NCBI GenBank assembly: GCA_030611945.1
Contig: JAUWOV010000008.1
Span: forward strand, 1 to 30,848
Reading direction: 5' to 3'
DNA length: 30,848 bases
DNA from: a bacterium
GTDB lineage: Bacteria; JAHJDO01
Made by a program: the position numbers and the translations under genes. Positions 2,735-26,156 of the stretch are shown in pieces. Each line of letters begins with the position of its first letter. Position 1 is the first letter of the stretch. The notes beneath the pieces are model-generated. The model was not told the DNA's origin, made no database searches, and saw only the letters and a program-made list of their open reading frames with translations.

Positions 2735-3595
2735 CTAATCTTTCTCTTGTTCCCATCTGGCTATAATCTGTACAGCTTTTTTGTTTTCCGGGAATAATCC
2801 GAGAACCTGTTTGTAACAGTCTATTGCCTTTTGTGTATGTCCTTGAAATTTATACGAGAAAGCAAGGAATCTGAGTATGCCTGCTTTGTCATATTCATCC
2901 ATTTCAGCCTGTGATTTGAGAGCCTTCTCAAAATAGTATTGAGCTTTTTTATAATCCTTTAGCCTTGAAAAATAGACTATCCCAATTTGCGTAGATATTT
3001 GGTAGCCATCCGGGTTGTTTTTTATTCCCTCTTTCAAGAATTTAATGGCTTCCTCCGTTTTCCCAAGTCTAAATGCGAGCCAGTATCCTCCAACAGCGTA
3101 TGCCCTCACGTGATGAGGATTGAACGTGGTAGTAAGCTTGAACCACGGCATAAGTTCATCCTCTCTTTTACTATGCAGGTGCTCTGTAATATTCGGCTTG
3201 AGATTGTATTCAAGCTTAGCAAAGAGTTTGTCCAGTCTGTTATGCTTTAACTCGTGTCCATGCTCTGTTCCTTTGTGTTCATGTTCATGTTTGTGCTGCG
3301 TATGTCCTCCTATGCCTGCCTCTTCTAAAATATGGCAGTGTGAATGTTCAGTTACTCCCTTATGAAGATATTCGTCTGTTTTCAGCCACAACAGATCTGC
3401 GGAACCAGAAAAGACACCGCCTAAAATTTTACTTATAATTTCTCCGCCCGGAATAACAGAAACACTGCTAGCCTCAGAATAATGATAGGTTTGAAGAGGA
3501 ATCTGAAGTAACAAGACACAAAGCAACAAAGCACAAAGGCACAAAGGCACATTGTAGGGGCGGTGCTTGCCCCCGCCCGTTCCCAGTTTTTTCAC
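2735..3595 (-). CDS. Membrane-anchored TPR protein with histidine-rich loop
   Basis: Probable inner-membrane-anchored periplasmic protein of about 286 residues. I chose the GTG at 3595 because it overlaps the permease stop as GTGA, the coupling used repeatedly in this window; a GTG at 3550 is also possible, and a longer reading from 3703 would overlap the permease by 112 bp. The N-terminus has one hydrophobic segment rich in L and C (PLCLCALLLCVLLLQ), a signal anchor. A histidine-rich stretch follows (roughly positions 3245-3355) with 11 His and one Cys in about 40 residues, suggestive of transition-metal binding. The C-terminal half has TPR-like helices (for example PDGYQISTQIGIVYFSRLKD and KAGILRFLAFSYKFQGHTQK). 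Substrate is unknown. The signal-anchor coding sequence is built from dispersed repeats (see findings). Confidence 0.75.
   Translation of the reverse strand: MKKLGTGGGKHRPYNVPLCLCALLLCVLLLQIPLQTYHYSEASSVSVIPGGEIISKILGGVFSGSADLLWLKTDEYLHKGVTEHSHCHILEEAGIGGHTQHKHEHEHKGTEHGHELKHNRLDKLFAKLEYNLKPNITEHLHSKREDELMPWFKLTTTFNPHHVRAYAVGGYWLAFRLGKTEEAIKFLKEGIKNNPDGYQISTQIGIVYFSRLKDYKKAQYYFEKALKSQAEMDEYDKAGILRFLAFSYKFQGHTQKAIDCYKQVLGLFPENKKAVQIIARWEQEKD
3511..3553. repeat. TTTGTGCC-type short tandem repeat inside the TPR gene
   Basis: On the minus strand this reads as near-tandem units of TTTGTGCC and variants (TTTGTGCT, TTTGTGTC). The same unit recurs at 11413-11450 and near 15696-15708, in each case over the hydrophobic core of a signal peptide. 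Here it encodes PLCLCALLLCVLLL. Confidence 0.6.
3554..3581. repeat. G/C-rich palindromic repeat, copy 1
   Basis: The element starts GTAGGGGCGG, has a GCTTGCC core and ends CCGCCCGTT, with arms that can pair (GGGGCGG with CCGCCC). An almost identical copy in the same orientation lies at 24704-24731, inside the Rhs-like gene. Here it is translated on the minus strand as part of the N-terminal region of the TPR protein. Confidence 0.7.
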
Positions 3596-4359
3596 AACTG
3601 CTTTCTCTGAAACTTCAATGTCCCTATCAGCAGAAAGATAGATATATAAACAACAGCGTATATCGTTACTGTTATTATTACCCATGCCGGGACTGGCGGC
3701 CATTGGTGAACTATCTTTTTTGACAGGTCAAAATAATCAAGATGAGGAATGATATAATTAAGAGACTTGAGCATCCAGACAAGGAACGCTCCGCACTTAT
3801 CAAGCGCGTCTGAGATAGCTTTGCCAATCCAATGTCCCAGAATAAAATAAAGGATTGAGACTGTAACATTTGCGGCATTTGTCATAAAGGCTGACAGACA
3901 TATAACAATAGAGGATATGAGCATTAACTGAAGAATATGCAGGAATATCCCCTGTATTAAAATACCCGACACACTGCTTCCTTTAGAAAGCAGGAGAATA
4001 ATGAATATTCCCTCAAAAACCAGAAAACAGAATATAGAAATAAGCGATGTTCCAAGCCATTTTCCTATAATAAATTCAGACCTTTTTAGAGGTTTTGCCA
4101 TCAACGGATAAATCGTGCGGCTGTTCAGTTCGGTGGGCAGCTGTCTTGCTCCAACAACAACAGCAATAATTACAGTTATATAGGTAACGATAAGAAAGGA
4201 TAATTCTGTAAAATACTTTACTAATCCTGTTAGAGAGAAAAAACTTGCCATTGCAGCTACAGCCATTATTGCAACAGATAAAATAAATAAAACGTAGATT
4301 TCTTTTTTTCTGATAGATTCCTCAATTACATTTTTCGCAATAATCCATGCAGCTCTCAT
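3592..4359 (-). CDS. ABC-2 type transporter permease
   Basis: Integral inner-membrane subunit of an ABC exporter, 255 residues with about six hydrophobic segments (around residues 22-45, 50-70, 100-125, 130-160, 165-185 and 225-248). The layout resembles ABC-2/NosY-type permeases: a short cytoplasmic N-terminus, then a loop with R-Q-L-P-x-E-L-x-S-R-T-I-Y-P-L-M-A-K-P, the usual coupling segment of this family. Its start overlaps the end of the ATPase gene by 4 bp (ATGA) and its stop overlaps the GTG of the TPR gene, so the three form one operon. The substrate cannot be read from the sequence; the histidine-rich partner hints at a metal or metalloprotein-related role, but that is inference. Confidence 0.85.
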   Translation of the reverse strand: MRAAWIIAKNVIEESIRKKEIYVLFILSVAIMAVAAMASFFSLTGLVKYFTELSFLIVTYITVIIAVVVGARQLPTELNSRTIYPLMAKPLKRSEFIIGKWLGTSLISIFCFLVFEGIFIILLLSKGSSVSGILIQGIFLHILQLMLISSIVICLSAFMTNAANVTVSILYFILGHWIGKAISDALDKCGAFLVWMLKSLNYIIPHLDYFDLSKKIVHQWPPVPAWVIITVTIYAVVYISIFLLIGTLKFQRKQL

Positions 4360-5493: not shown

Positions 5494-5542
5494 AGTATAT
5501 AAAATAGAAGGAAAAATTTATTGAAGAGGAGGTGAATAAGAA

Positions 5543-5995
5543 ATGATTAAATTACTGAGAAGTAAGAAAGGTTTTACGCTAGTTGAGATCATGATCGTTG
5601 TTGCGATCATCGGTCTTCTTGCAGCAATAGCCATTCCAAACTTCATCAAGTCCAGAAACCGCTCCAGAGACGCTGTATGCACAAACAACATGAAGCAGAT
5701 CGCGTCTGGTCTTGAACAGGTATGTATGGAGAATAATATGGATGCTACTACAGCTGGCGCTGGTCTTGCCTGGAGCGTAGCTCCTACATCAAATGGATGG
5801 GGCTTAGTAACTGCAGCAGGTCCACCTATAATTCACGGATACCTAAAGACAGTTCCTACATGTCCAATTAATGCAGCCAACGCTTATGTGGCGAATGCAA
5901 CAGCAGCTGGAGTGTTTCAGATTGTATGTGCAAACGCTGCAGGTCATAGCCCGAGTTTTCTGGGCAGTGTTGCTACTCCATTTCAGCTGCCATAA
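5543..5995 (+). CDS. pilA: Type IV major prepilin
   Basis: Probable major pilin of 150 residues. The leader MIKLLRSKKG precedes the prepilin peptidase site G|FTLVE, with Glu at mature position 5 and a hydrophobic alpha1 helix (IMIVVAIIGLLAAIAIP). The globular part has four cysteines (in D-A-V-C, Q-V-C, T-C-P and I-V-C) at the same places as in the next gene, suggesting two disulfides. The start is secure: GAGGAGGT lies nine bases upstream. It is the first gene after the sigma-54 promoter, the position expected of the highly expressed pilin. A GspG-like pseudopilin is the alternative, but the pilMNOPQ/pilT context favours T4P. Confidence 0.9.
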   Translation: MIKLLRSKKGFTLVEIMIVVAIIGLLAAIAIPNFIKSRNRSRDAVCTNNMKQIASGLEQVCMENNMDATTAGAGLAWSVAPTSNGWGLVTAAGPPIIHGYLKTVPTCPINAANAYVANATAAGVFQIVCANAAGHSPSFLGSVATPFQLP

Positions 5996-6078: not shown

Positions 6079-6079
6079 A

Positions 6080-6535
6080 ATGATAAGAATTTTGAAAGAC
6101 AAGACAGGATTTACGATTGTTGAGATTATGATCGTTGTTACGATCGTAGGGCTTTTATTAACTATAGCTATGCCTAATTTTGTCAAATCAAGGACGAGGT
6201 CAAGAGATGCTGTATGCGCGGACAATATGAGCCAGATCGCGTCTGCTCTGAAACAGGTATGCATGGAGAAAGACCTTGACGTTGCTAATGGCGGCGCTGG
6301 ATTTGCAGTTGGAGCAATTGCGTGGAATGCTGTTCCCACGAACAATGGATGGGGAGTGGTAGGAGCGACATCTTATTTGAAAACAGCTCCTGTGTGTCCT
6401 GTTAGTACAGCCAATGCTTACACAGTGGGTTCTGACACAAAGGGTACATTTCTGATCTTGTGCCCAAACATTACAGGACATGGAGCAAAATTTAGGAGTG
6501 ATTACAGTGCGCCAAGTTATTACACAACGCAGTAA
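6080..6535 (+). CDS. Second type IV prepilin, paralogue of pilA
   Basis: A 151-residue prepilin with leader MIRILKDKTG and cleavage site G|FTIVE. I chose the ATG at 6080, residue 27 of the longer open frame, because it gives a normal 10-residue leader and has GAAAGG upstream; the frame before it is the structured intergenic segment. It aligns with the preceding pilin along its length, sharing R-S-R-D-A-V-C, Q-V-C-M-E, N-G-W-G, Y-L-K-T and four cysteines, so the pair arose by tandem duplication. It may be a minor or alternative pilin. A dedicated RNA structure separates it from the first pilin. Confidence 0.88.
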   Translation: MIRILKDKTGFTIVEIMIVVTIVGLLLTIAMPNFVKSRTRSRDAVCADNMSQIASALKQVCMEKDLDVANGGAGFAVGAIAWNAVPTNNGWGVVGATSYLKTAPVCPVSTANAYTVGSDTKGTFLILCPNITGHGAKFRSDYSAPSYYTTQ

Positions 6536-11351: not shown

Positions 11352-12470
11352 ATGTTTAGAATTTTGAAAATTAGGGTTTTGAATTTGTTTCGGATTTCGG
11401 ATTTTCTTTCGCTGTTGTGCCTATGTGCCTTTGTAACTTTGTGCCTTCTCTTATCTTCCGGCTGTTCAAAGCCCGCTCAGAATGATAACGAAAAACAGGC
11501 GCAGAGGTCTATAAAACAAAAAACGTCAATCAAAAAACCCGAGAAGAAGACTTTTACATACAGCAGTCATGGCAAAAGGGATATATTCGTTCCTCTTGTC
11601 TCAAAGGAGGAAGGCATTATATCCGACAAAACAAAAGGTATTGTGGTTTTGAAGCTGCCTGATTTAAAGGTAGAAGGCATCCTGTTTGATAAGGATTCAG
11701 TTCCATTTGTTATTATAAACGACCGCATCCTGACCATAGGAGACAGCGTTAATGAATGCGAAATCACCTCAATAACCGCGGACGAAATAGTGCTTATATA
11801 TATGAATAAGGAATATAGCTTAAAAGTAAGCGACAGCGGAATCTCAAGCAAAGAGATTTCTTCCAGCAGCATCACTCCAAAAAAAAAAGAGGTAAAGAGC
11901 GCAGCTGCATCTAAGCAGTCTTTGAAAAAGCAGCTGGCGCAGGCAAAAGAGGAAATCAATAAACACAAGGATTCTCTATTATCCGAAAGAAAGAAAACAA
12001 TAGATGCGGCATCTGATTCTAAGAAGAAGATTCAGGAATTAAGAGATGGATATACAGAGCAATTAGCTGAAGCCAATTCAAGTATCGGTTCTCTCCAGTC
12101 AAGAATAAAATCTTTGGTTCAGGGCGAGACGGATTTAAAAAAACAGCTGGCAGAAAAAACAGAAGAAAGAATAATCATAAAGGCAATGCCTGTAGAAACA
12201 GGTTCTTTTAACGAGGAGATACAGGGAGAGATTGTAAGCGTCAACAAAAAAACAGGGATAGTTGCCATAAGCTTTGAAAAGCATAAAGATATAAGCGGAC
12301 AGAAAGGCAAAAAATTTGCTGTGTTTCATAAGAATAAGCTGATAGACAAGCTCGTAATTAAAAAAGTATATAATACGACACTGGTTGCTGGAGTTGACGT
12401 GTTTGATAATATAAAAAAAATTAAAAAAGGCGATACTGTTCAGCTTTTGAACAGGGATGTGACGGAATAG
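11352..12470 (+). CDS. pilP: PilP-like lipoprotein with coiled coil and C-terminal SH3-like domain
   Basis: 372 residues, in the pilP position between pilO and pilQ. The N-terminus is a lipoprotein signal ending L-S-S-G-C, with Cys38 as lipidation site. Residues ~60-160 resemble PilP: R-D-I-F-V-P-L-V, then L-K-V-E-G-I-L-F-D and V-I-I-N-D-R-I-L-T-I-G-D, the beta domain that contacts the secretin. Residues ~185-265 form a coiled coil. Residues ~285-370 (G-E-I-V-S-V-N-K-K-T-G-I-V to G-D-T-V-Q-L) look like a small beta-barrel of the FlgT C-terminal/SH3-like kind. It is twice the length of standard PilP, so it is a fusion. The signal peptide coding sequence is repeat-derived. Confidence 0.75.
   Translation: MFRILKIRVLNLFRISDFLSLLCLCAFVTLCLLLSSGCSKPAQNDNEKQAQRSIKQKTSIKKPEKKTFTYSSHGKRDIFVPLVSKEEGIISDKTKGIVVLKLPDLKVEGILFDKDSVPFVIINDRILTIGDSVNECEITSITADEIVLIYMNKEYSLKVSDSGISSKEISSSSITPKKKEVKSAAASKQSLKKQLAQAKEEINKHKDSLLSERKKTIDAASDSKKKIQELRDGYTEQLAEANSSIGSLQSRIKSLVQGETDLKKQLAEKTEERIIIKAMPVETGSFNEEIQGEIVSVNKKTGIVAISFEKHKDISGQKGKKFAVFHKNKLIDKLVIKKVYNTTLVAGVDVFDNIKKIKKGDTVQLLNRDVTE
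11354..11450. repeat. AT-rich plus TTTGTGCC repeat encoding the PilP-like signal peptide
   Basis: The first part reads TTTAGAATTTTGAAAATTAG, then TTTTGAATTTGTTTCGGATT, matching the copies at 14612-14678 and 15632-15690. The second part is a run of TTGTGCC/TATGTGCC/TTTGTAAC/TTTGTGCC units. Together they encode residues 2-33 of the lipoprotein signal. Confidence 0.65.
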
Positions 12471-14540: not shown

Positions 14541-14678
14541 GTAAATTCGAAGCACGAAGCACGAAATACGAAACAATATCAAATGACCAAAATATAAATG
14601 TTCAAAACAACGTTTTGAATTTTGAAAATTTGAATTTAGAATTTGTTTAGGATTTCGATATTCGGATTTCGGATTTTT
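14541..14678. repeat. AT-rich dispersed repeat in the pilQ downstream gap
   Basis: The first part is a run of CGAAGCACGAAGCACGAAAT-type units, the second TTTTGAATTTTGAAAATTTG then GAATTTGTTTAGGATTTCG and two CGGATTTC units. This copy is non-coding, unlike the related copies at 11354 and 15632. Nothing else is visible in the 14531-14698 gap except AAGGAG before the next ATG. Confidence 0.65.
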
Positions 14679-14698: not shown

Positions 14699-15619
14699 AT
14701 GAATAAAAACAAAGATATGTCGGTAACAAAGACGCATGCTCGTCATAATATTCTTATAAACATTGCTCTTATAATTACTATGCTGATATTGATAGGAGCG
14801 TGTGTTTTTTTAGGCACATACGCATTATCATGGGATAAGGTTGTGCTTTATGTCAGCATGGGTATTCTGCTTGTTGTTATAGCATTCCTGATGTTTCTGA
14901 TTAAGAAGATTAATACGAATGTGGTGAAGATGATGGCAAAAGCTAAAATAGCGGCTGATCCGGAACTGGAAGAGATAGGAATAGATGAATTAAGCGCCTC
15001 ATTGAATAAAGTTACAAAAAGACTTATGGGAGATATGTCCGACCTTTATCAGACTGAGGCAAAAATAAGCGGTCTCAACCATGAGATCAATAGACTGCTT
15101 GAAAAAGCCAAAGCATTGACCATTACAGATAAATTAACGGGCTTGTATAACTTCAAATATTATGAGGAATATTTGGCGGAAGAGCTGAAACGGGCGGCTA
15201 TGTATGAACGTCCGTGTTCTATAATTGGGTTTGACATTGATAATCTGGATATATATTTGAAGAAATTCGGCGGGAATATTAAGAATAAGATCCTAAAGAA
15301 GATTGCAGGCATCCTGAGGGAGAACGCAAGAGATATTGATAAGATAGCCCGCCTCAAAGATACCGCATTCTGCATTATTCTTCCTGAGATCAATAAAAAG
15401 GAAGCTTATGCTCTTGCTGAAAAGATAAGAAAAGCGGTTGCAAGTGAATCCATCCCGGACGCAAAGAACATAGTGGAGAATTCAAAGATCACTGTAAGCG
15501 GAGGAGTGGTCGCAAATCCGATTGACGGTGATGCTATAGAAGAATTAAACAATAAACTATATCGCGCAATAGCGATGGCAGTGAAAGAGCATGGAAACAA
15601 AGTGATCATGTTTCCATGA
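14699..15619 (+). CDS. Membrane protein with degenerate GGDEF domain retaining the I-site
   Basis: 306 residues: two transmembrane helices (~20-45 and ~52-72), a linker/coiled coil (~80-140), then a GGDEF-family domain beginning I-T-D-K-L-T-G-L-Y-N. The catalytic GGDEF is replaced by K-D-T-A-F (220-224), so cyclase activity is not expected. The inhibitory-site motif RxxD is intact (R211-D-I-D214), exactly five residues before the signature as in active family members. That pattern fits a c-di-GMP receptor of the PelD/PopA kind. Its paralogue is the next gene, overlapped by ATGA. AAGGAG supports the start. Confidence 0.82.
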   Translation: MNKNKDMSVTKTHARHNILINIALIITMLILIGACVFLGTYALSWDKVVLYVSMGILLVVIAFLMFLIKKINTNVVKMMAKAKIAADPELEEIGIDELSASLNKVTKRLMGDMSDLYQTEAKISGLNHEINRLLEKAKALTITDKLTGLYNFKYYEEYLAEELKRAAMYERPCSIIGFDIDNLDIYLKKFGGNIKNKILKKIAGILRENARDIDKIARLKDTAFCIILPEINKKEAYALAEKIRKAVASESIPDAKNIVENSKITVSGGVVANPIDGDAIEELNNKLYRAIAMAVKEHGNKVIMFP

Positions 15620-17181
15620 TAAGTAATCAATGTTTAAGATTTTTGAAAATTAGGATTTTGAATTTGTTTAGAGTTTTTGGTTTCAGATTTTCTTTAGCTT
15701 TGTGCCTTATTTCTTGCTCAAAAACTGCGCAGAGAGAATATCAGGGCTTAGAATTAGGACCCAGCAACGGGGAAATAATATCCATATCCAAGAATTCATC
15801 CGCTGGAAAATCAGAATTAAAAAAAGGAGACAGAATAGTAAATATTGACGGCGAAACCGTTGTCAACTGGAACCATGAAGCGCTGATGAACGCATTGAGA
15901 GCGCAGAAAGGAAAGGAACTGCGATTGGCAGTAGAAAGAGATATTTTAGTAACTATCATCAATATTCCACGAACAACTAAAAAGGGACTTGGAGTAAAGA
16001 TAGAAACAGTTCCTGAAGGAATAACAATAACGGATGTTACAAAAGACAGCGCATCATATATAGCAGGATTGAAAACAGGAGATATAATAACTGAGATAGC
16101 CGAAAAATCCCTGAAAGGGATGAAAATGTCGGATGTAATAGAAATTATTAAGCAAAATTCCAGTGGGAAGATGGCTACGGTAATCAGGAGGAATATTGTT
16201 TTGCCTGTAGCCAAAGCTATAATCAAAGCGCCCGTTGAGGGAAAACAGGTTTCCGAAATAAAAAAACCAGCAGAGAGAGCGAATATAATTTCTTTTTTGT
16301 ATCTCATTATTATGCTTTTAATACTTACCGTTGTCTCTCTTGCATTTTTAATGAAAAGACTCAGTCACGGCGTAACGATGCATATGCCGTCAGCAGGTCA
16401 TAATACTGCTGTAATTGAAAATTTGAACGAAGTAAAACTGGACGAGATTAAACAGGCTATAGCGGGGATTCAACAGGCAGATATTAATTTGTCGGATTTA
16501 TCGGATAAAATCGCAGAAAAGCTTAAGAAAAATTTTCAGGAAAATTCATTAGATCAGGACAAACTTGTTGAGAAGATCAAGAAAGGGATGGAGATTTCCG
16601 AAAAGCAGAATATGCCGGATTTTTCTGAAATAGACACAAAGATAGAGAAGCTTCACTATGAAATTAACAGAATGTTTGAAAAAGCCAATGCTATGGCAAT
16701 CACAGACAAACAGACAGGTCTGTTTAACGATGAATATTATCGTGAATATTTGAATGAGGAATTGAAGCGCGCAGCCATGTATGAATATCCGTGCTCTATT
16801 GTCAGGTTTGACGTTGATAATCTGGATGTGTATTCAAAGACGTTTGGAGAGGATGTTAAAAACGAAATTCTGAGAAAAGTCGCGTCTGTTTTAAAGGAGA
16901 ATGTCAGAAACATTGACAAAATAGCGCGATGGAAAGATGCATCGTTTTCCATTGTTCTCCCTAAAACAAATAAAAAAGTTGCCGCCTCCTTTGCTGAAAG
17001 AACGCAAAAGGCAATTGCTTCCGAGCCTATGACGGACGAGAAAAACATGATAAAAGATACAAAGGTTACTGTAATCGCAGGAGCGGTTTCAAGTCCGATT
17101 GACGGCAGCGGCGAAAAGGAGTTAAGCGAGAAATTATCTCAGGTAATAGAACAGGCAAGAAAGAAAGGAATAACAGGGTAA
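15616..17181 (+). CDS. Lipoprotein with two PDZ domains, TM helix and degenerate GGDEF domain
   Basis: 521 residues. A lipoprotein signal ends L31-I-S-C34. Two PDZ domains follow (~45-115 and ~120-200; for example S-E-L-K-K-G-D-R-I-V-N-I-D-G-E and A-G-L-K-T-G-D-I-I-T-E-I), a transmembrane helix (~226-247), a coiled linker, and a GGDEF-like domain paralogous to that of the preceding gene. The signature is K-D-A-S-F (440-444) instead of GGDEF, while RxxD is conserved (R431-N-I-D434). Predicted topology is PDZ in the periplasm and the nucleotide-binding domain in the cytoplasm, a transmembrane signalling layout. The ATG overlaps the previous stop. The signal peptide region is a dispersed repeat. 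Confidence 0.8.
   Translation: MISNQCLRFLKIRILNLFRVFGFRFSLALCLISCSKTAQREYQGLELGPSNGEIISISKNSSAGKSELKKGDRIVNIDGETVVNWNHEALMNALRAQKGKELRLAVERDILVTIINIPRTTKKGLGVKIETVPEGITITDVTKDSASYIAGLKTGDIITEIAEKSLKGMKMSDVIEIIKQNSSGKMATVIRRNIVLPVAKAIIKAPVEGKQVSEIKKPAERANIISFLYLIIMLLILTVVSLAFLMKRLSHGVTMHMPSAGHNTAVIENLNEVKLDEIKQAIAGIQQADINLSDLSDKIAEKLKKNFQENSLDQDKLVEKIKKGMEISEKQNMPDFSEIDTKIEKLHYEINRMFEKANAMAITDKQTGLFNDEYYREYLNEELKRAAMYEYPCSIVRFDVDNLDVYSKTFGEDVKNEILRKVASVLKENVRNIDKIARWKDASFSIVLPKTNKKVAASFAERTQKAIASEPMTDEKNMIKDTKVTVIAGAVSSPIDGSGEKELSEKLSQVIEQARKKGITG
15632..15708. repeat. AT-rich repeat encoding the PDZ-GGDEF lipoprotein signal peptide
   Basis: GTTTAAGATTTTTGAAAATT, then AGGATTTTGAATTTGTTTAG and a terminal TTTAGCTTTGTGCC. 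It aligns with the 11354 copy both in DNA and in translation: F-L-K-I-R-I-L-N-L-F-R here, I-L-K-I-R-V-L-N-L-F-R there. Confidence 0.65.
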
Positions 17182-19447: not shown

Positions 19448-22400
19448 ATGACTATTAAAAGAATAATCACATTAATCAGCATACTAATTTTATGTCTATT
19501 AACCCTCTCCCCTAATCTTGAAGCCAAAGGCAGAAACATTGATATCGCTATCACTCCCGACAAAGCGGAAGATTATGTCATAGGAGAAAAAGCCACCTTT
19601 GACATGGAGATGACCCGACACAATAGACCTGCTAACATAAAATTAAAGCAGATAGAAGCGACATTCCCGAATGAGGAGGTTTCAGTAAGTTTAACCAAAG
19701 TCAGCAGAGGCAAATTCAAATATATTACAGAAGAATTTGAGGAGACAGGAGAGAAGACCTTATCTCTAACAGTCAGAAGTTATGGAGCGATAAAGAGAGT
19801 AGAGAGTCTTGAAAGAGCAAAGGAGAGACTTGAGAAGAGGATAGAGAAGCTGGAGGAACGAAAGGAGAACACAAACAATGAGAGACTTAAGCGAATACTA
19901 GACAGATTAATAGCTAAATGTCAGAGAAGCATTCAGAAGATAGAAGCTAAAATAGAGAAGATCAGAGAGAAAGGGATTATCGGGCAAGCTTCTTGCATCA
20001 TTATAGTAATTCTTCCTGTTACGCCGCCTCCAACAGGAGCTGATGCAGGTTACATTCATGGCAAAGTATATGATTCGTTCAATGATGGGCCTTTAGCCGG
20101 AGCCAAAATTACTGCAAGAGATGTAGAAGGAGCGATTCTTACAGATGAAAATGGAAAATTCGCTTTCCCAATTATTGATTATTCTCAGGAGAATAAAAAG
20201 CAGGCTATTCTTACCATAGAAAAAGCAGGTTATACATACGCTCAGAGACGTGTTGTTGTAACCACTACCAGAGACACTTCAGTTGACCCTGCTTATTTAA
20301 CCCAGTTAGACAGCAAAACAACAACCATTACTTCTGGAGGAGGCATAGCTACCAACGCAGACGGAACTATAGAGATAACCTTTCCTGAAGGAGCAACAAG
20401 CGAGGACATAGAAGTAAACGCCACAAACTTTAAGAGAGGAAAAGACCTGCCTGCTCCATTGCCTGAGACATCATTCTTTACTTACGCTTTGGAATTACTG
20501 CCTGACGGAGCAACCTTTGATACTCCCGTTACAGTAAAGATAGCCAACTGGCGCGGCTTTGCTGCTGGCACACCAATTCCGGTGGGATATTACAATAAAA
20601 ATACTGTTCGCTGGGAAGCTGAGAGCATGGGTGTTGTAACCGAAGATGGCGAGTGGGTAGAGTTTGCAGTAGAGCATTTTTCGCCAAGGGATTGTAATTA
20701 TCCAGTTAGGGCTCCTATTGGCTCGCAGGGACCAGGCCCGGACAGAATAGAAAATAGAGAAAATACAGGTCAGACAAAGGCGGCAACGGATCCTGGAGTA
20801 GGCATACGATCTGGTTCGCTTCTTCTTGAACATATACTTCCCGCAACTAAAAGTTTGGGCAAGTCTCAAGATTTGAAGCTTACCTATTCTTCTACTTCGG
20901 CTCATCCGTCTGCTTTTATAGGCACAGAAACCAGGCGAATTTACAGGCAGTCTCCTGAAACTTGTGGCTGGATACTGGATATAGAAGGAATCAGGAAAGA
21001 AATAAAGTTCAAAGGAATACTTACATGGAAAAAGGACAGACAGGGATTTTTGTTTGACGGGAAAAACGTGCGAGAATTACCACTTGATACAGGTAGCTAC
21101 AATTATTGCTTGAGACTCTCTAATGATTACAAAGCAGAATACTTTACTGCTTCGTCGTTTGGCGCTCCTGCGGAAGAACCTACTGGAGTTTATGCTGATG
21201 AGTTAAAACCACTTACTAGTCAGGTTGACGGAAAAATAATCATTAATAATCAGCAAGCAAGTTCCTTTGGAGCTGGCTGGACACTAAATGAACTTCAGAG
21301 GCTCCACTTTGACCCTGATGGAAAAATACTTCTGACTCAAGGCAACGGTTCTGCCTCTGTCTTTACTCCAGGCGGATATTTTCCTTCTACTATCTTCAGC
21401 GGTATTCCTTGGCCTGAATTGTTAACCATAGATAAAAAAGATAATCTCTATGTGCCATGTATTAGCGGTGGTAATGGAGATACAATTTATAAAATTGCTC
21501 CTGATGGAACTAAGAGCATTTACTCAGATATTTCTTCCACCGCTGTAACCTTTGATTCAGTTGGTAATCTATATGCCAGTGGCGATGATAGCAATATCTA
21601 CAAAATTACTCCTGATGGCGAGGAAGAAATCTTTGCTGAAGGATTTTCTACGCCTGTAGGACTTGTTTTTGACAAAGAAGGTGTTCTCTATGTATCAGAT
21701 GAAAATGTTATATATAAAGTTACTCCAAAGAAAAAAGAAGTCTTTGTCAGTGGATTGAGCAGTTCGCATGGGTTGGCTTTTGACGATCAGGAAAACCTTT
21801 ATGTAGCTAATTCTGGCGAGGGGACAGTCTTAAAAATCACTCCCGATGGCGAAACAGCCATATTCTCTAGTGGGTTTGATTATCCTTACGGACTTACCTT
21901 TAATACTGAGGGGAATCTTTATGTAGCTGGTCGCGACACAATTTACTTTATTACTCCAGAAGGAGAAGTAAGCAGATTTGCTGACGGATTTAACTGGCTG
22001 ACAGGAATTGTCTTTGACAGCTTAGGCAATCTGTATGTGTCAAATGCAGGTGCGAATGCTATCTACAAAATACTTCCTAACGAAGACATAATTAAGGACT
22101 ATATCTCCCCTTCTGGAGATTTCTCTCAGCTCACTCATAATACGACAAATGATACATATACTCGCACCCTAAAAGGCGGCACAAAGATAAATTTCAACTC
22201 AGAAGGCTTGCACACATCTACTGTAGATAGAAACGGCAACACAACCACTTACACATACGCCGATGTTAATGGAGACGGCAAAGCGGAAGAACTTATCAGT
22301 ATTACCGATGCTACAGGAGGAGTTACTCAATTCAGTTATGAGAACGGACACCTTGCTTCGGTTACTGATCCAGCTGGAAGAATTACTCAGTTTAATATAG

Positions 22401-25400
22401 ATGGTGATAATAACCTCATCGCTGTTACCACACCTGATGGAGCGAACACGCAATATGTCTATAATGAAAATCATCTCATAAACAGCGTAACTGACGCTTT
22501 AGACAATACCACTCAATATATACGTGGTGCTAAAGGAAGATATAACCAGATAATCTTTCCAACTGGCGAAGCCATAGATTTTATTCCTTCAGAGACACAG
22601 GGATTGATCAATGACATTCCTGAAGGAGTAGGCACGTCGGAAAATCCAGCTCCTCCTGTCTCTGCCAACATTCCTGATTTGCTTACCAATCGACGTGGGT
22701 TTACGACAACCTATCAAACAAATAAATTCGGCATGTTTACCAAAGAAACCGACCCGCTCGGAAGAATCACGGAGACAGAAAGGGATGCTGATTCCAATCC
22801 AACTAAGATTACTCGCACAAATGGAAGCGTTGTGGGAATGAGCTACGATGAAAAAGGAAATCTTTTAACTCTTACCGAACAAGCCACAAACGCAACAACT
22901 ACATTTACCTATCATCCTGATTTCAATCAGGTTGCATCTATCACTGACCCGTTAGGCAACATTACAACTATGGATTATGACACAAACGGCAATCTTGTGA
23001 AAACAACCGATGCACAAAATAACGAGACTGCAATGACCTATGACGCGAAAGGACTGCTCACTTCAACCACAGATGCCAAAGGAAATATAACCTCATACGT
23101 CTATGACACAAAAGGCAATCTAACTAAGATTACAGACGCTTTGAATAATGAGACAGGTTTTACTTATGATACAGCAGGGAACGTTCTCTCTATCACTGAC
23201 GCTAAGGGCAACACAACCAGCTATGAATACAACAATATGAACCACTTGCTCAAACTCATTGACAGCCAGGATAACGTAACAACTTACGAATATGATCTAA
23301 ATGGCAACCGCACCAAGGTTATAGATTCAAAAGGCAATATCACTGTTTATGAGTATGATGAAATGAATAAGCTCATCAAAGTTACTGATGCCAAGGATAA
23401 TGTTACCACATACACTTATGATGATAACAGCAACCGCACCTCAATTACCGATGCAAATGGCAATACAACTGCTTATGCCTATGACGAAGCAGACCAGCTT
23501 ATTAATGTAACCGATTCTCTAAGCAAAGTTACCAGCTACACTTACGATGAAATGGGCAACAGAATATCCACAACGGACGCAAACGACAATACTACTAACT
23601 ATGCCTACGACTTGCTCAGCAGATTAACTAAGACGACATATCCTGATACAACATATGAACAATACACATACGATATAAACTCCAATCTTCTAAGCAAACG
23701 CACAAGAAAAGGCGACGTAATAACATATTCATATGATAATCTAAACAGACTGGATATTAAGACATATCCAAACGCAGCAACAGTTGACTACAGCTATGAT
23801 ATTACCTCCCGTCTCACATCAGTCATTGCGAGCGGCAGCGAAGCAATCTCATATACCTACGATAATTTAAACAGAGTTACGCAAGTAACCAGTCAAGGCA
23901 AAACGATAGACTATAATTATGACAATACCGGCAACAGAACAAAGCTGAGATATCCGGATAGCTCTTATATAACTTATGACTATGATGATCTGAACAGATT
24001 AACTGCCATAAAGGATGATACATCGGCAACTATTGCCTCATATAGCTATGATGCTTTATCAAGAAGAACAGAGGCAAATTATGCAAATAATACGCAAAGC
24101 GAATATTCTTACGATAACGTCCATCGTCTTCTAGCTCTTGCAAACAAAATAAACGGCGGAGCAGATATATCAACCTTTGCTTATACATATGATAATGTAG
24201 GTAATCGCCAAACTATGACAAAGAATGGGCAAACGCACTCTTATCAGTATGATAGTATCTATCAATTGACCAACGCAGATTATCCAGCAACATATCCTTA
24301 CAGCGATACAGTGTTTAATTATGATGCGTTAGGTAATAGAGAAACAGTAACAAATGGAGGAACAACTAACTACACATCAAACAATCTTAATCAATACACA
24401 GCCGTTGATAACGGACAGGGGCAAGCCCTGTCCCCACAATATGATCCCAGTGGCAATTTAACAAATGATGGCACTTGGACTTTTGGCTATGATTACGAGA
24501 ACCGTTTAATCAGCGCAACCAACGGAACCATCAATGTTTCTTATGCTTACGATGCGCTTGGCAGAAGAATACAAAAAGATGTTGATGGCGTAATTACAAA
24601 GTATCTTTATGACGGCGATCAGGTTATATGTGAATATGACAACAGCGAAACACTGCTCCGCAAATTCATCTACGGTCCCGGCATAGATGAACCAATAGCA
24701 TTTGTAGGGGCGGGGCTTGCCTCCGCCCGTTATTATTACCATTTTGACGGTCTCGGCTCGGGAACAGAGATAACCGATTCAAGCGGTGATGTAGTTGAAA
24801 AATATGAGTATGATGTTTACGGTAAGATAATAATTAAAGACGGTTCTGATGTTGTTATAAATGAATCAGCGATCGGTAATCCTTACGCATTTACGGGGCG
24901 TAGATTGGATAATGAGACGGGATTGTACTATTACCGTTCAAGATATTATTCTCCCGAATTAGGCAGATTTTTGCAGACAGATCCTATTGGTTATTACGAC
25001 TCAATGAATTTGTATGCGTATGTCAACAACAATCCGCTGAATTTTGTGGATCCATTGGGATTAGGTGCGGATGAAAAAACGAATGAACAGCAGAAATCAT
25101 TTTGGGACTTTTTCTGGGAAGGAGTATATAAGGATACATTAAGAATTTTTGAAGGTACCCAGTGGGCTGGAGGAACTGGCGGTAGCGGAAAAATAAAATT
25201 ACCTATAATTCCCATAAAACTTGAATTAGGAATGCATGCAATAGAAGGAGAAAGAGTAACTAGGGGTGGCGTAGAAAGTTTTTATGAGGAAAAAACAGAG
25301 GTCTCTTTGCAAGTAGGTCTTTTTAATCCTTCTTTAGCAATTGTAGATGGAGAAGTCAAAGTTTCGCCTGTTTGGAAAAAGGGAGGTTTATCAATAAGTG

Positions 25401-25510
25401 ATTTTATGACAATAGAAATTGGTGGGACAATTCCTCCAAATCCTTATACTGGACAGGCTATCAATGCAGTATTACACATACACTTAGACGCAATATTTAG
25501 GAGAAGATAA
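19448..25510 (+). CDS. YD-repeat/Rhs-like giant exported protein with beta-propeller
   Basis: 2020 residues. Order: signal peptide (1-26, ends N-L-E-A); beta domain; coiled coil (~118-178); carboxypeptidase-regulatory-like beta sandwich (~199-275); ZU5/GAIN-like region (~283-395); Rhs N-terminal region from G-V-G-I-R-S-G-S-L-L-L-E-H; six NHL-type propeller blades (~658-877, unit F-D-x-x-G-N-L-Y-V); more than 20 YD repeats (~914-1790); and the Rhs core signature from Y-A-F-T-G-R-R-L-D to N-P-L-N-F-V-D-P-L-G (1868-1871). A 149-residue variable tip follows. Rhs/tc-type proteins form a shell around a C-terminal toxin; a pilus-associated adhesin is the alternative. AGGAAAA supports the start. It separates pilB from pilC. 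Three dispersed palindromes lie in frame (residues 1459-1467, 1655-1663, 1753-1761). Confidence 0.88.
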   Translation: MTIKRIITLISILILCLLTLSPNLEAKGRNIDIAITPDKAEDYVIGEKATFDMEMTRHNRPANIKLKQIEATFPNEEVSVSLTKVSRGKFKYITEEFEETGEKTLSLTVRSYGAIKRVESLERAKERLEKRIEKLEERKENTNNERLKRILDRLIAKCQRSIQKIEAKIEKIREKGIIGQASCIIIVILPVTPPPTGADAGYIHGKVYDSFNDGPLAGAKITARDVEGAILTDENGKFAFPIIDYSQENKKQAILTIEKAGYTYAQRRVVVTTTRDTSVDPAYLTQLDSKTTTITSGGGIATNADGTIEITFPEGATSEDIEVNATNFKRGKDLPAPLPETSFFTYALELLPDGATFDTPVTVKIANWRGFAAGTPIPVGYYNKNTVRWEAESMGVVTEDGEWVEFAVEHFSPRDCNYPVRAPIGSQGPGPDRIENRENTGQTKAATDPGVGIRSGSLLLEHILPATKSLGKSQDLKLTYSSTSAHPSAFIGTETRRIYRQSPETCGWILDIEGIRKEIKFKGILTWKKDRQGFLFDGKNVRELPLDTGSYNYCLRLSNDYKAEYFTASSFGAPAEEPTGVYADELKPLTSQVDGKIIINNQQASSFGAGWTLNELQRLHFDPDGKILLTQGNGSASVFTPGGYFPSTIFSGIPWPELLTIDKKDNLYVPCISGGNGDTIYKIAPDGTKSIYSDISSTAVTFDSVGNLYASGDDSNIYKITPDGEEEIFAEGFSTPVGLVFDKEGVLYVSDENVIYKVTPKKKEVFVSGLSSSHGLAFDDQENLYVANSGEGTVLKITPDGETAIFSSGFDYPYGLTFNTEGNLYVAGRDTIYFITPEGEVSRFADGFNWLTGIVFDSLGNLYVSNAGANAIYKILPNEDIIKDYISPSGDFSQLTHNTTNDTYTRTLKGGTKINFNSEGLHTSTVDRNGNTTTYTYADVNGDGKAEELISITDATGGVTQFSYENGHLASVTDPAGRITQFNIDGDNNLIAVTTPDGANTQYVYNENHLINSVTDALDNTTQYIRGAKGRYNQIIFPTGEAIDFIPSETQGLINDIPEGVGTSENPAPPVSANIPDLLTNRRGFTTTYQTNKFGMFTKETDPLGRITETERDADSNPTKITRTNGSVVGMSYDEKGNLLTLTEQATNATTTFTYHPDFNQVASITDPLGNITTMDYDTNGNLVKTTDAQNNETAMTYDAKGLLTSTTDAKGNITSYVYDTKGNLTKITDALNNETGFTYDTAGNVLSITDAKGNTTSYEYNNMNHLLKLIDSQDNVTTYEYDLNGNRTKVIDSKGNITVYEYDEMNKLIKVTDAKDNVTTYTYDDNSNRTSITDANGNTTAYAYDEADQLINVTDSLSKVTSYTYDEMGNRISTTDANDNTTNYAYDLLSRLTKTTYPDTTYEQYTYDINSNLLSKRTRKGDVITYSYDNLNRLDIKTYPNAATVDYSYDITSRLTSVIASGSEAISYTYDNLNRVTQVTSQGKTIDYNYDNTGNRTKLRYPDSSYITYDYDDLNRLTAIKDDTSATIASYSYDALSRRTEANYANNTQSEYSYDNVHRLLALANKINGGADISTFAYTYDNVGNRQTMTKNGQTHSYQYDSIYQLTNADYPATYPYSDTVFNYDALGNRETVTNGGTTNYTSNNLNQYTAVDNGQGQALSPQYDPSGNLTNDGTWTFGYDYENRLISATNGTINVSYAYDALGRRIQKDVDGVITKYLYDGDQVICEYDNSETLLRKFIYGPGIDEPIAFVGAGLASARYYYHFDGLGSGTEITDSSGDVVEKYEYDVYGKIIIKDGSDVVINESAIGNPYAFTGRRLDNETGLYYYRSRYYSPELGRFLQTDPIGYYDSMNLYAYVNNNPLNFVDPLGLGADEKTNEQQKSFWDFFWEGVYKDTLRIFEGTQWAGGTGGSGKIKLPIIPIKLELGMHAIEGERVTRGGVESFYEEKTEVSLQVGLFNPSLAIVDGEVKVSPVWKKGGLSISDFMTIEIGGTIPPNPYTGQAINAVLHIHLDAIFRRR
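23822..23850. repeat. In-frame dispersed repeat GTCATTGCGAGC...GAAGCAATCTC
   Basis: The 29-bp element begins GTCATTGCGAGC and ends GCGAAGCAATCTC, a sequence widely scattered in unrelated bacterial genomes. It is translated here as V-I-A-S-G-S-E-A-I, replacing the loop between two YD units, without disturbing the frame. Confidence 0.75.
24411..24437. repeat. In-frame palindromic repeat, GGACAGGG type
   Basis: GGACAGGG (24413-24420), loop GCAAG, CCCTGTCC (24426-24433): a perfect 8-bp stem. Its complement has the same GGGCTTGCCC core as the elements at 3554 and 24704. It is translated G-Q-G-Q-A-L-S-P inside a YD unit. Confidence 0.75.
24704..24731. repeat. In-frame palindromic repeat, GTAGGGGCGG type, copy 2
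   Basis: Starts GTAGGGGCGGGGCTTGCC and ends TCCGCCCGTT, differing from the 3554-3581 copy at about two positions. It is translated V-G-A-G-L-A-S-A-R, inserted between the Y-G-P-G-I-D-E-P and Y-Y-Y-H-F-D-G-L-G-S motifs of the Rhs core. Confidence 0.75.
25058..25510 (+). other. Variable C-terminal tip of the Rhs-like protein, candidate toxin domain
   Basis: Residues 1872-2020, directly after the D-P-L-G boundary where Rhs proteins switch to their variable effector. An aromatic-rich helix (KSFWDFFWEGVYKD) and a Gly-rich linker lead to several predicted beta strands (KLPIIPIKLELGMHAI, KTEVSLQVGLFN, FMTIEIGGTIPP, NAVLHIHLDAIF). I do not recognise a nuclease or other known toxin motif. Two membrane proteins follow immediately. 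The effector role is inference from position. Confidence 0.5.
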
Positions 25511-25511
25511 G

Positions 25512-25823
25512 ATGAAGATATTTTTTAGAATTGTTGCATTAAATATAATAATAGGGAATATAATAGCTTACTTCTTCCCTTTTTCTATTTCCAAACCAGT
25601 CGTAGAATTTCAAATGATGGACTGGTTATCATTCACATGGATTCTGCTATCTATTATGAGTGGCTTTTTCTGGATAGGTTATATGTTTTATCATTGGGGA
25701 ATAAGTAAGTTTAAAAATGGTGCTATAAAAAGAATATGGTTTTGGGCAATGTTATTTGGCGGAATACCTGTCTATTATATAATTGTTTACGAGATAGGTA
25801 AGGGATTAAAAGAGGGAAATTAG
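25512..25823 (+). CDS. Small three-helix membrane protein, candidate immunity protein 1
   Basis: 103 residues, unrecognised. Three hydrophobic segments (~5-23, ~38-60, ~76-94). It starts one base after the Rhs-like stop, so it is coupled to it. It is clearly paralogous to the next gene, sharing P-F-S-x-S-K, H-W-G-I, I-K-R-I-W-F-W and Y-Y-I-I-V-Y-E-I-G-K-G-L. Tandem paralogues directly behind a variable Rhs tip are typical of immunity proteins, and a membrane location would suit a membrane-acting toxin. A PLDc_N-like small membrane protein is a weak alternative, from the last helix pair only. Confidence 0.65.
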   Translation: MKIFFRIVALNIIIGNIIAYFFPFSISKPVVEFQMMDWLSFTWILLSIMSGFFWIGYMFYHWGISKFKNGAIKRIWFWAMLFGGIPVYYIIVYEIGKGLKEGN

Positions 25824-25826
25824 ACG

Positions 25827-26156
25827 ATGAAGATGATTACTAGAGCCATTATAGCAAATATGATGTTGGGATATATAGTAGCTTTTTATTCGCCATTTTC
25901 ATTCTCTAAAACGATACCAGAATTGCAGGGAAAAGAATGGATTTTACTAGCATGGGCTGGTATCTCTATTATAGGTTTTTTCTTTGTATGGGGACATTTC
26001 TTTCATCACTGGGGAATACATGAGTTTATCAATAAAAAAATAAAGAGAATATGGTTTTGGGTTCTCTTGCTCGGTGCGATGCTGTATTTTGTTGGCCCAT
26101 TGGTTTATTATATTATTGTTTATGAGATTGGAAAAGGGTTGGAAAGAGAAAGCTAG
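25827..26156 (+). CDS. Small three-helix membrane protein, candidate immunity protein 2
   Basis: 109 residues, tandem duplicate of the preceding gene, starting 3 bp after its stop. Three hydrophobic segments (~5-22, ~38-60, ~77-100). Conserved with its paralogue: S-P-F-S-F-S-K, F-F-H-H-W-G-I, I-K-R-I-W-F-W, and the C-terminal Y-Y-I-I-V-Y-E-I-G-K-G-L. The central helix pair diverges more than the ends, as expected if each copy is tuned to a different toxin variant. Function is inferred from context only. Confidence 0.65.
   Translation: MKMITRAIIANMMLGYIVAFYSPFSFSKTIPELQGKEWILLAWAGISIIGFFFVWGHFFHHWGIHEFINKKIKRIWFWVLLLGAMLYFVGPLVYYIIVYEIGKGLERES

Follow-up and report, generated by a model that had tools for sequence, protein, structure and literature searches.

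Three short palindromes are read, without interruption of the frame, within a single gene for a YD-repeat protein; two of them (E2 and E3) are very probably copies of GTAG-type REPs and the third (E1) a rarer REP-like palindrome, all fixed in frame by a process at work across the genus. The gene lies in a window of 30,848 nucleotides (the whole stretch of DNA analysed here), which belongs to a genome of 1.66 Mb in 119 contigs, referred to as G000, and is compared with four further genomes of the same genus; all the genomes compared are draft MAGs. The features concerned are:

19448-25510, forward strand: YD-repeat / Rhs-associated-core gene, an intact ORF of 2,020 aa, host of the three in-frame elements
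23822-23850, forward strand: E1, REP-like repeat GTCATTGCGAGCGGCAGCGAAGCAATCTC, read VIASGSEAI(S), residues 1459-1467
24411-24437, reverse strand (reverse orientation): E2, GTAG-superfamily REP with its core at 24413-24433, read GQGQALSP, residues 1656-1663
24704-24731, forward strand: E3, GTAG REP GTAGGGGCGGGGCTTGCCTCCGCCC(GTT), read VGAGLASAR, residues 1753-1761
24809-25063, forward strand: Rhs-associated core domain (TIGR03696), residues 1788-1872, directly after E3
3552-3581, forward strand: second E3-type GTAG REP of the window, identical to E3 at 28 of 30 nucleotides

The three elements and the protein that carries them

The original prediction placed three palindromes at these positions, translated as listed with the frame intact, and this is confirmed in the 2,020-residue ORF; the near-identical copy of E3 that it reported near 3554-3581 is likewise borne out. 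It further took the three repeats to be different from one another, which holds for E1 as a separate, rarer family, but not for E2 and E3, which belong to one superfamily and lie in opposite orientation; a division into three families is thus rejected.

The reverse complement of E2 reads GTGGGGACAGGGCTTGCCCCTGTCCG, where other copies have GTAGGGACAGGG..., and both E2 and E3 follow the pattern GTAGGG[GA]C, variable stem-loop, G[CT]CC. The GTAG tag itself is present in E3 and in the other five E2 copies, the E2 of the window reading GTGG. Both elements have stems of 8 bp (counting a G-T pair in E3) and loops of 5 nt, within the range applied for membership of the GTAG REPs (stem 5-13 bp, loop 2-20 nt), and are predicted to form strong hairpins on either strand, at about -14 to -15 kcal/mol; they thus share with GTAG REPs the tag, the stem and loop size, the dispersed and mostly intergenic copies, and the presence of a RAYT gene in the genome. 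E1 is built differently: only an outer stem of 5 bp is formed (ATTGC/GCAAT), and its end is CTC. It is rare in G000, with one strict copy, the copy in an Rhs paralogue and four intergenic relatives of the form GTCATTGCGAG...GTGGCAATC. When compared with the CGTC REPs, the window copy has AGTC in place of the tag (CGTC, or its variants TGTC and CCTC), the copy in the Rhs gene of the sister genome G002 does read CGTC, and the 8-9 bp stem starting with AT and the CCA tail are absent; lacking the published tag, stem and tail of the CGTC families, E1 is called REP-like only. A search of the window against Rfam gave no match, and a simple inverted-repeat scan at high threshold missed the elements; the scan used here therefore had lowered thresholds and codon-shuffle controls.

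The host ORF encodes a secreted-looking protein in which PF05593 (RHS_repeat) matches 12 stretches with 296 bits; TIGR03696 (Rhs_assc_core) scores 93.9 bits against a cut-off of 32.5, and TIGR01643 is also above its cut-off. The full RHS element core model NF041261 reaches 211 bits, below its cut-off of 2000, and the protein is thus classed as a YD/Rhs-core protein and not as an RHS element core protein of NF041261. An AlphaFold2 model built on an alignment of 9 sequences (mean pLDDT 74.9, pTM 0.72) has its best Foldseek matches among Rhs effectors, teneurins and TccC-type shells, with E-values down to 1e-23. In this model the segments of E1 and E3 (the latter between GIDEPIAF and YYYHFDGLGS) would occupy strand-turn-strand positions, that of E1 the β-hairpin turn of one YD unit; the segment of E2 also appears as a turn, less certainly, with a local pLDDT of 66-69. 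Directly 3' of the gene, two tandem, related small membrane proteins are encoded on the forward strand (25512-25823 and 25827-26156), possibly immunity-type partners of the Rhs C-terminal domain.

The window contains further repeats. The second E3-type copy sits in the uncertain N-terminal part of the ORF at 2735-3703 and thus lies either between genes or at a gene start. An AT-rich repeat of 50 nt, 82% identical, occurs in three copies (11355-11404, 14613-14662 and 15634-15683), two of which overlap the predicted N-termini of the ORFs at 11352-12470 and 15616-17181, so that these starts may be wrong or repeat-encoded. Finally, a direct repeat of 228 nt, 72% identical, spans neighboring small ORFs (5542-5769 and 6079-6306).

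Dispersed copies and insertions into other genes

Pattern searches of G000, supplemented by retrieved stretches, give 16 E3-type and 6 E2-type copies with at most three mismatches, and none for the reversed control pattern in either case; other places in the genome match E3 at 93-100% over 30 nt. For the GTAG superfamily as a whole, 63 raw matches (control: 4) correspond to about 60 places, and roughly 40 of these copies lie outside clear coding frames. The four sister genomes yield 11 to 52 raw matches (controls 1 to 6) and a genome of Candidatus Omnitrophota 44 (control 6); the phylum-wide pattern search spans five genomes, the lineage consisting of one genus.

About 17 GTAG copies of G000, called from ORFs and hexamer scores, lie in frame within genes that have coding potential on both sides, so that the Rhs gene is not unique as a host. 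Other hosts include CoaX (type III pantothenate kinase), NadB (L-aspartate oxidase) and RibD, all three named by NCBIfam; an NtrC-type regulator and a histidine kinase, identified by their sequences, are among them too. Comparison with orthologues in the four relatives shows that CoaX of G000 is longer by 9 residues at its REP and NadB by 8, both inserts being absent from all four; as they are missing from the sister species, they are real, lineage-specific insertions, and CoaX and NadB are the only two sites where clean insertion is seen in the aligned sequences. At other sites the loops vary: the RibD loop of G000 holds one REP and that of G004 a different one, while the remaining three genomes have no REP there; in one histidine kinase loop, four species show differing REPs or remnants of them and the fifth shows none, which suggests repeated insertion, or swapping of REPs, at one site; REPs occupy a second kinase loop in only two of the five genomes; and the loops of the NtrC-type regulator also differ between species. 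Some loops of this set (RibD, kinase, NtrC) have other REPs at the same spot and, as judged from the alignments, are used repeatedly. Across sites, the net change in length ranges from 0 to about +11 residues, without a single fixed insertion length. A long membrane-protein ORF of G000 also carries three in-frame GTAG REPs, the coding potential around them being below that in the other genes.

These comparisons bear on the most skeptical reading of the palindromes, by which they would not be insertions at all but GC-rich loop codons that came by chance or convergence to resemble intergenic repeats. In its favor, the YD units that hold E1 and the E2-type copy of the Rhs paralogue C81 are of normal length. 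However, the genome has further copies that match E3 at every one of 30 nt, the reversed-pattern controls give 0 to 4 matches where the patterns themselves give 6 to 63, and the orthologues of CoaX and NadB show clean presence or absence. For E2 and E3 this reading is refuted by the DNA identity to dispersed copies, and for E1, which is common to three genes and has intergenic relatives, it is unlikely; taken overall, it is extremely improbable.

Rhs loops, RAYT genes and the question of a sink

Within the Rhs family the three elements behave differently. E1 is also found in the paralogue C76 and in G002, where its peptide is kept but for one replacement of S by N, the codons showing two synonymous changes as well. 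The gene of G002 and its closest counterpart in G000, C81, are 76% and 73% identical in the flanks of E1; at the site itself C81 has an ordinary loop of equal length, with 2 of 11 residues identical. At the E2 site, the same element is present in the paralogue C3 and absent from C81, with a net difference of about 5 residues. E3 is absent from its site in C24 and in the G002 gene C82; the homologues without it have a short, variable linker there, so that E3 adds only about 3-4 residues net. YD units with an element measure 19-23 residues, as do most units without one. Since units with E1 and E2-type elements thus keep the normal length, these elements replace loops instead of extending them, and the possibility that all three simply lengthen the protein is rejected. 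The original prediction had argued that YD repeats tolerate loop insertions; as to place this stands, all three elements being assigned to inter-strand turns in the model, but the units with E1 and E2-type elements are not lengthened. It had also named, as the case that would speak against insertion, relatives that carry the same peptides in genomes lacking the repeats. Such relatives were sought among the same-genus genomes and none was found; the only one there with the segments, G002, has the repeats too.

The E3 site recurs outside the genus. When 84,980 species genomes were scanned for a strict E3-type element, or E2-type element in reverse, followed by Y-x-Y-D, two records matched, one from the sister genome G002 and the other from Candidatus Omnitrophota, whose Rhs gene contains two E3-type elements, one of them at the E3 site of the window. 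There the REP is identical at 23 of 24 nucleotides (96%), whereas the DNA of the 60 codons on each side is 53% and 54% identical. Under simple inheritance the REP should have diverged about as far as the sequence on either side; repeated acquisition, or homogenization by copying, is thus more likely, and the sequences suggest the former.

The original prediction further proposed that the gene may be a sink for such elements, a proposal that survives in part. Rhs genes make up about 1% of G000 and hold 4 of the roughly 17 intragenic GTAG copies (binomial P 4e-5), or 3 of 16 when the site common to C115 and C3 is counted once (P 8e-4); they are enriched in intragenic copies, although the numbers are small and one site is common to paralogues. 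With all of the approximately 60 copies as the base, the excess weakens to P values of 0.004 to 0.025. The RAYT genes, for their part, are at least as strong as hosts. Of the eight RAYT ORFs examined, seven (from G000, G002, G003 and G004) have GTAG REPs in their own frame, and the eighth (L021) has a decayed one, read VGDGLASAR; the REPs recur in two loops, one before the LN/LS-x-IG helix and the other directly after MPNHIHGII. In the RAYT gene of G000 two REPs lie inside and others near. Scored with NF047646 (cut-off 80), the RAYT of G003 reaches 81.1 bits and that of G000 67.2 bits. As the RAYT genes themselves carry in-frame REPs at two recurrent loops, the Rhs gene is not the main sink.

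That the Rhs gene is nevertheless a true preferred target, to which the RAYT or recombination of the YD array directs REPs beyond what loop tolerance would allow, is rather unlikely. The share of intragenic copies in so small a part of the genome (P 4e-5, or 8e-4 pooled) and the use of the same E3 site in the Omnitrophota gene would fit such targeting; but the excess is weak against the full set of copies, copies passed between paralogues do not count as independent, a long repeat gene that is not essential tolerates inserts in any case, and the strict combination of element and YxYD occurs in only 2 of the 84,980 species genomes. Tolerance by a long, loop-rich and probably non-essential gene explains the enrichment without targeting.

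The preferred reading, of REPs fixed in frame wherever they are tolerated, can be put as a sequence of steps. The RAYT encoded in the same genome, a Y1-type enzyme of the HUH class, likely copies the hairpins as single strands; insertions that break the frame or the fold, out of frame or in the core, would be lost by purifying selection; and the survivors, as the alignments and the model show, are those whose net length is a multiple of three and which lie in surface turns. Exchange of YD units may then carry a REP-bearing unit to paralogues, or put it in the place of a normal loop that is just as long; this route is proposed because the copies of E1 share flanks beyond the element and the length of the unit is unchanged.

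The elements are also read unevenly. Five of the six readings of the E2 and E3 hairpins are open, and the family is mostly read as V-G-[AT]-x-x-x-x-A-R: this reading (forward phase 0) accounts for 19 of the 32 in-frame copies across the genus, as counted by hand, with P about 1e-6 under equal use of the five readings and about 1.6e-3 when shared sites are roughly collapsed. The VGAxxxxAR reading suits a turn. It is conceivable, if somewhat doubtful, that GTAG hairpins act as ready-made β-hairpin turns, with repeated entry at the same turns in Rhs/YD proteins, in two-component regulators and in RAYTs, across species and phyla and with a preference for this reading; if so, a hairpin of mobile DNA would be recurrently converted into a hairpin of protein.

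Probably, the segments are tolerated or domesticated loops without a dedicated function. A functional role, by which the peptide or a GC-rich hairpin in the mRNA would act as a regulator of the Rhs gene in its translation, export or recombination, could draw on the strong hairpins predicted for E2 and E3 on either strand and on the conservation of the E1 peptide in G002; yet the elements are confined to lineages, and at one site different species have different ones, as expected for tolerated loops; moreover, their placement is not conserved across most Rhs genes, which makes such a role very unlikely.

Relation to known systems

GTAG-tagged REPs with stems of 5-13 bp, some of them in frame in unrelated proteins, were described by Di Nocera et al. 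(2013; PMC3733652), who suggest that flexible loops or linkers tolerate them and who report a case, recB, in which two species have different REPs at roughly one position. The same paper equates the Rickettsia elements RPE-4 and RPE-6 with CGTC REPs, which have no dedicated transposase, RPE-1 being longer. As in-frame REPs of both the GTAG and the CGTC type, including Rickettsia elements, are already published there, the kind of event is known. The word Rhs does not occur in that paper, and searches of the open-access literature found no report of palindromic or REP insertions in YD/Rhs genes or within RAYT frames; Rhs loops and RAYT genes thus appear to be new as hosts.

The elements described here resemble those GTAG REPs in tag, stem, dispersed copies, the RAYT genes of the genome and the in-frame position of some copies. 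They differ in that the hosts include Rhs/YD loops and RAYT genes, where the paper stresses genes of replication and repair, in that orthologues from four sister species tell which insertions are lineage-specific, and in that replacement leaves the length of some loops unchanged. The five congeneric genomes form a clean comparative system, in which presence, absence and swapping of REPs can be followed at loops of CoaX, NadB, RibD, the kinase and Rhs, and which is suited to asking how mobile DNA becomes protein sequence. For annotation they advise caution, since short 'extragenic' repeats may be genuine coding sequence.

The original prediction was reminded of the in-frame palindromic elements of Rickettsia, and the analogy is well supported: dispersed palindromes are fixed in frame in many unrelated and probably functional proteins (about 17 here), several being absent from sister orthologues. 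It remains an analogy and not a claim of membership. In contrast to those elements, E2 and E3 bear the GTAG tag and occur together with RAYTs. With the REPtrons (Nunvar et al., 2010; PMC2817692) they share the Y1-type RAYT with its HUH (HIH) motif and the GTAG hairpins nearby; in contrast to REPtrons, the REPs here are found inside the RAYT frame at two recurrent loops, and not merely beside the gene, so that transposase genes with REPs in their own frame are exhibited. The phenomenon is known from Rickettsia and a handful of other bacteria, and the window adds to it a new, well-resolved example. With it, the range of intragenic REPs comes to include YD shell proteins and an uncultured lineage that is small, with one genus and five genomes.
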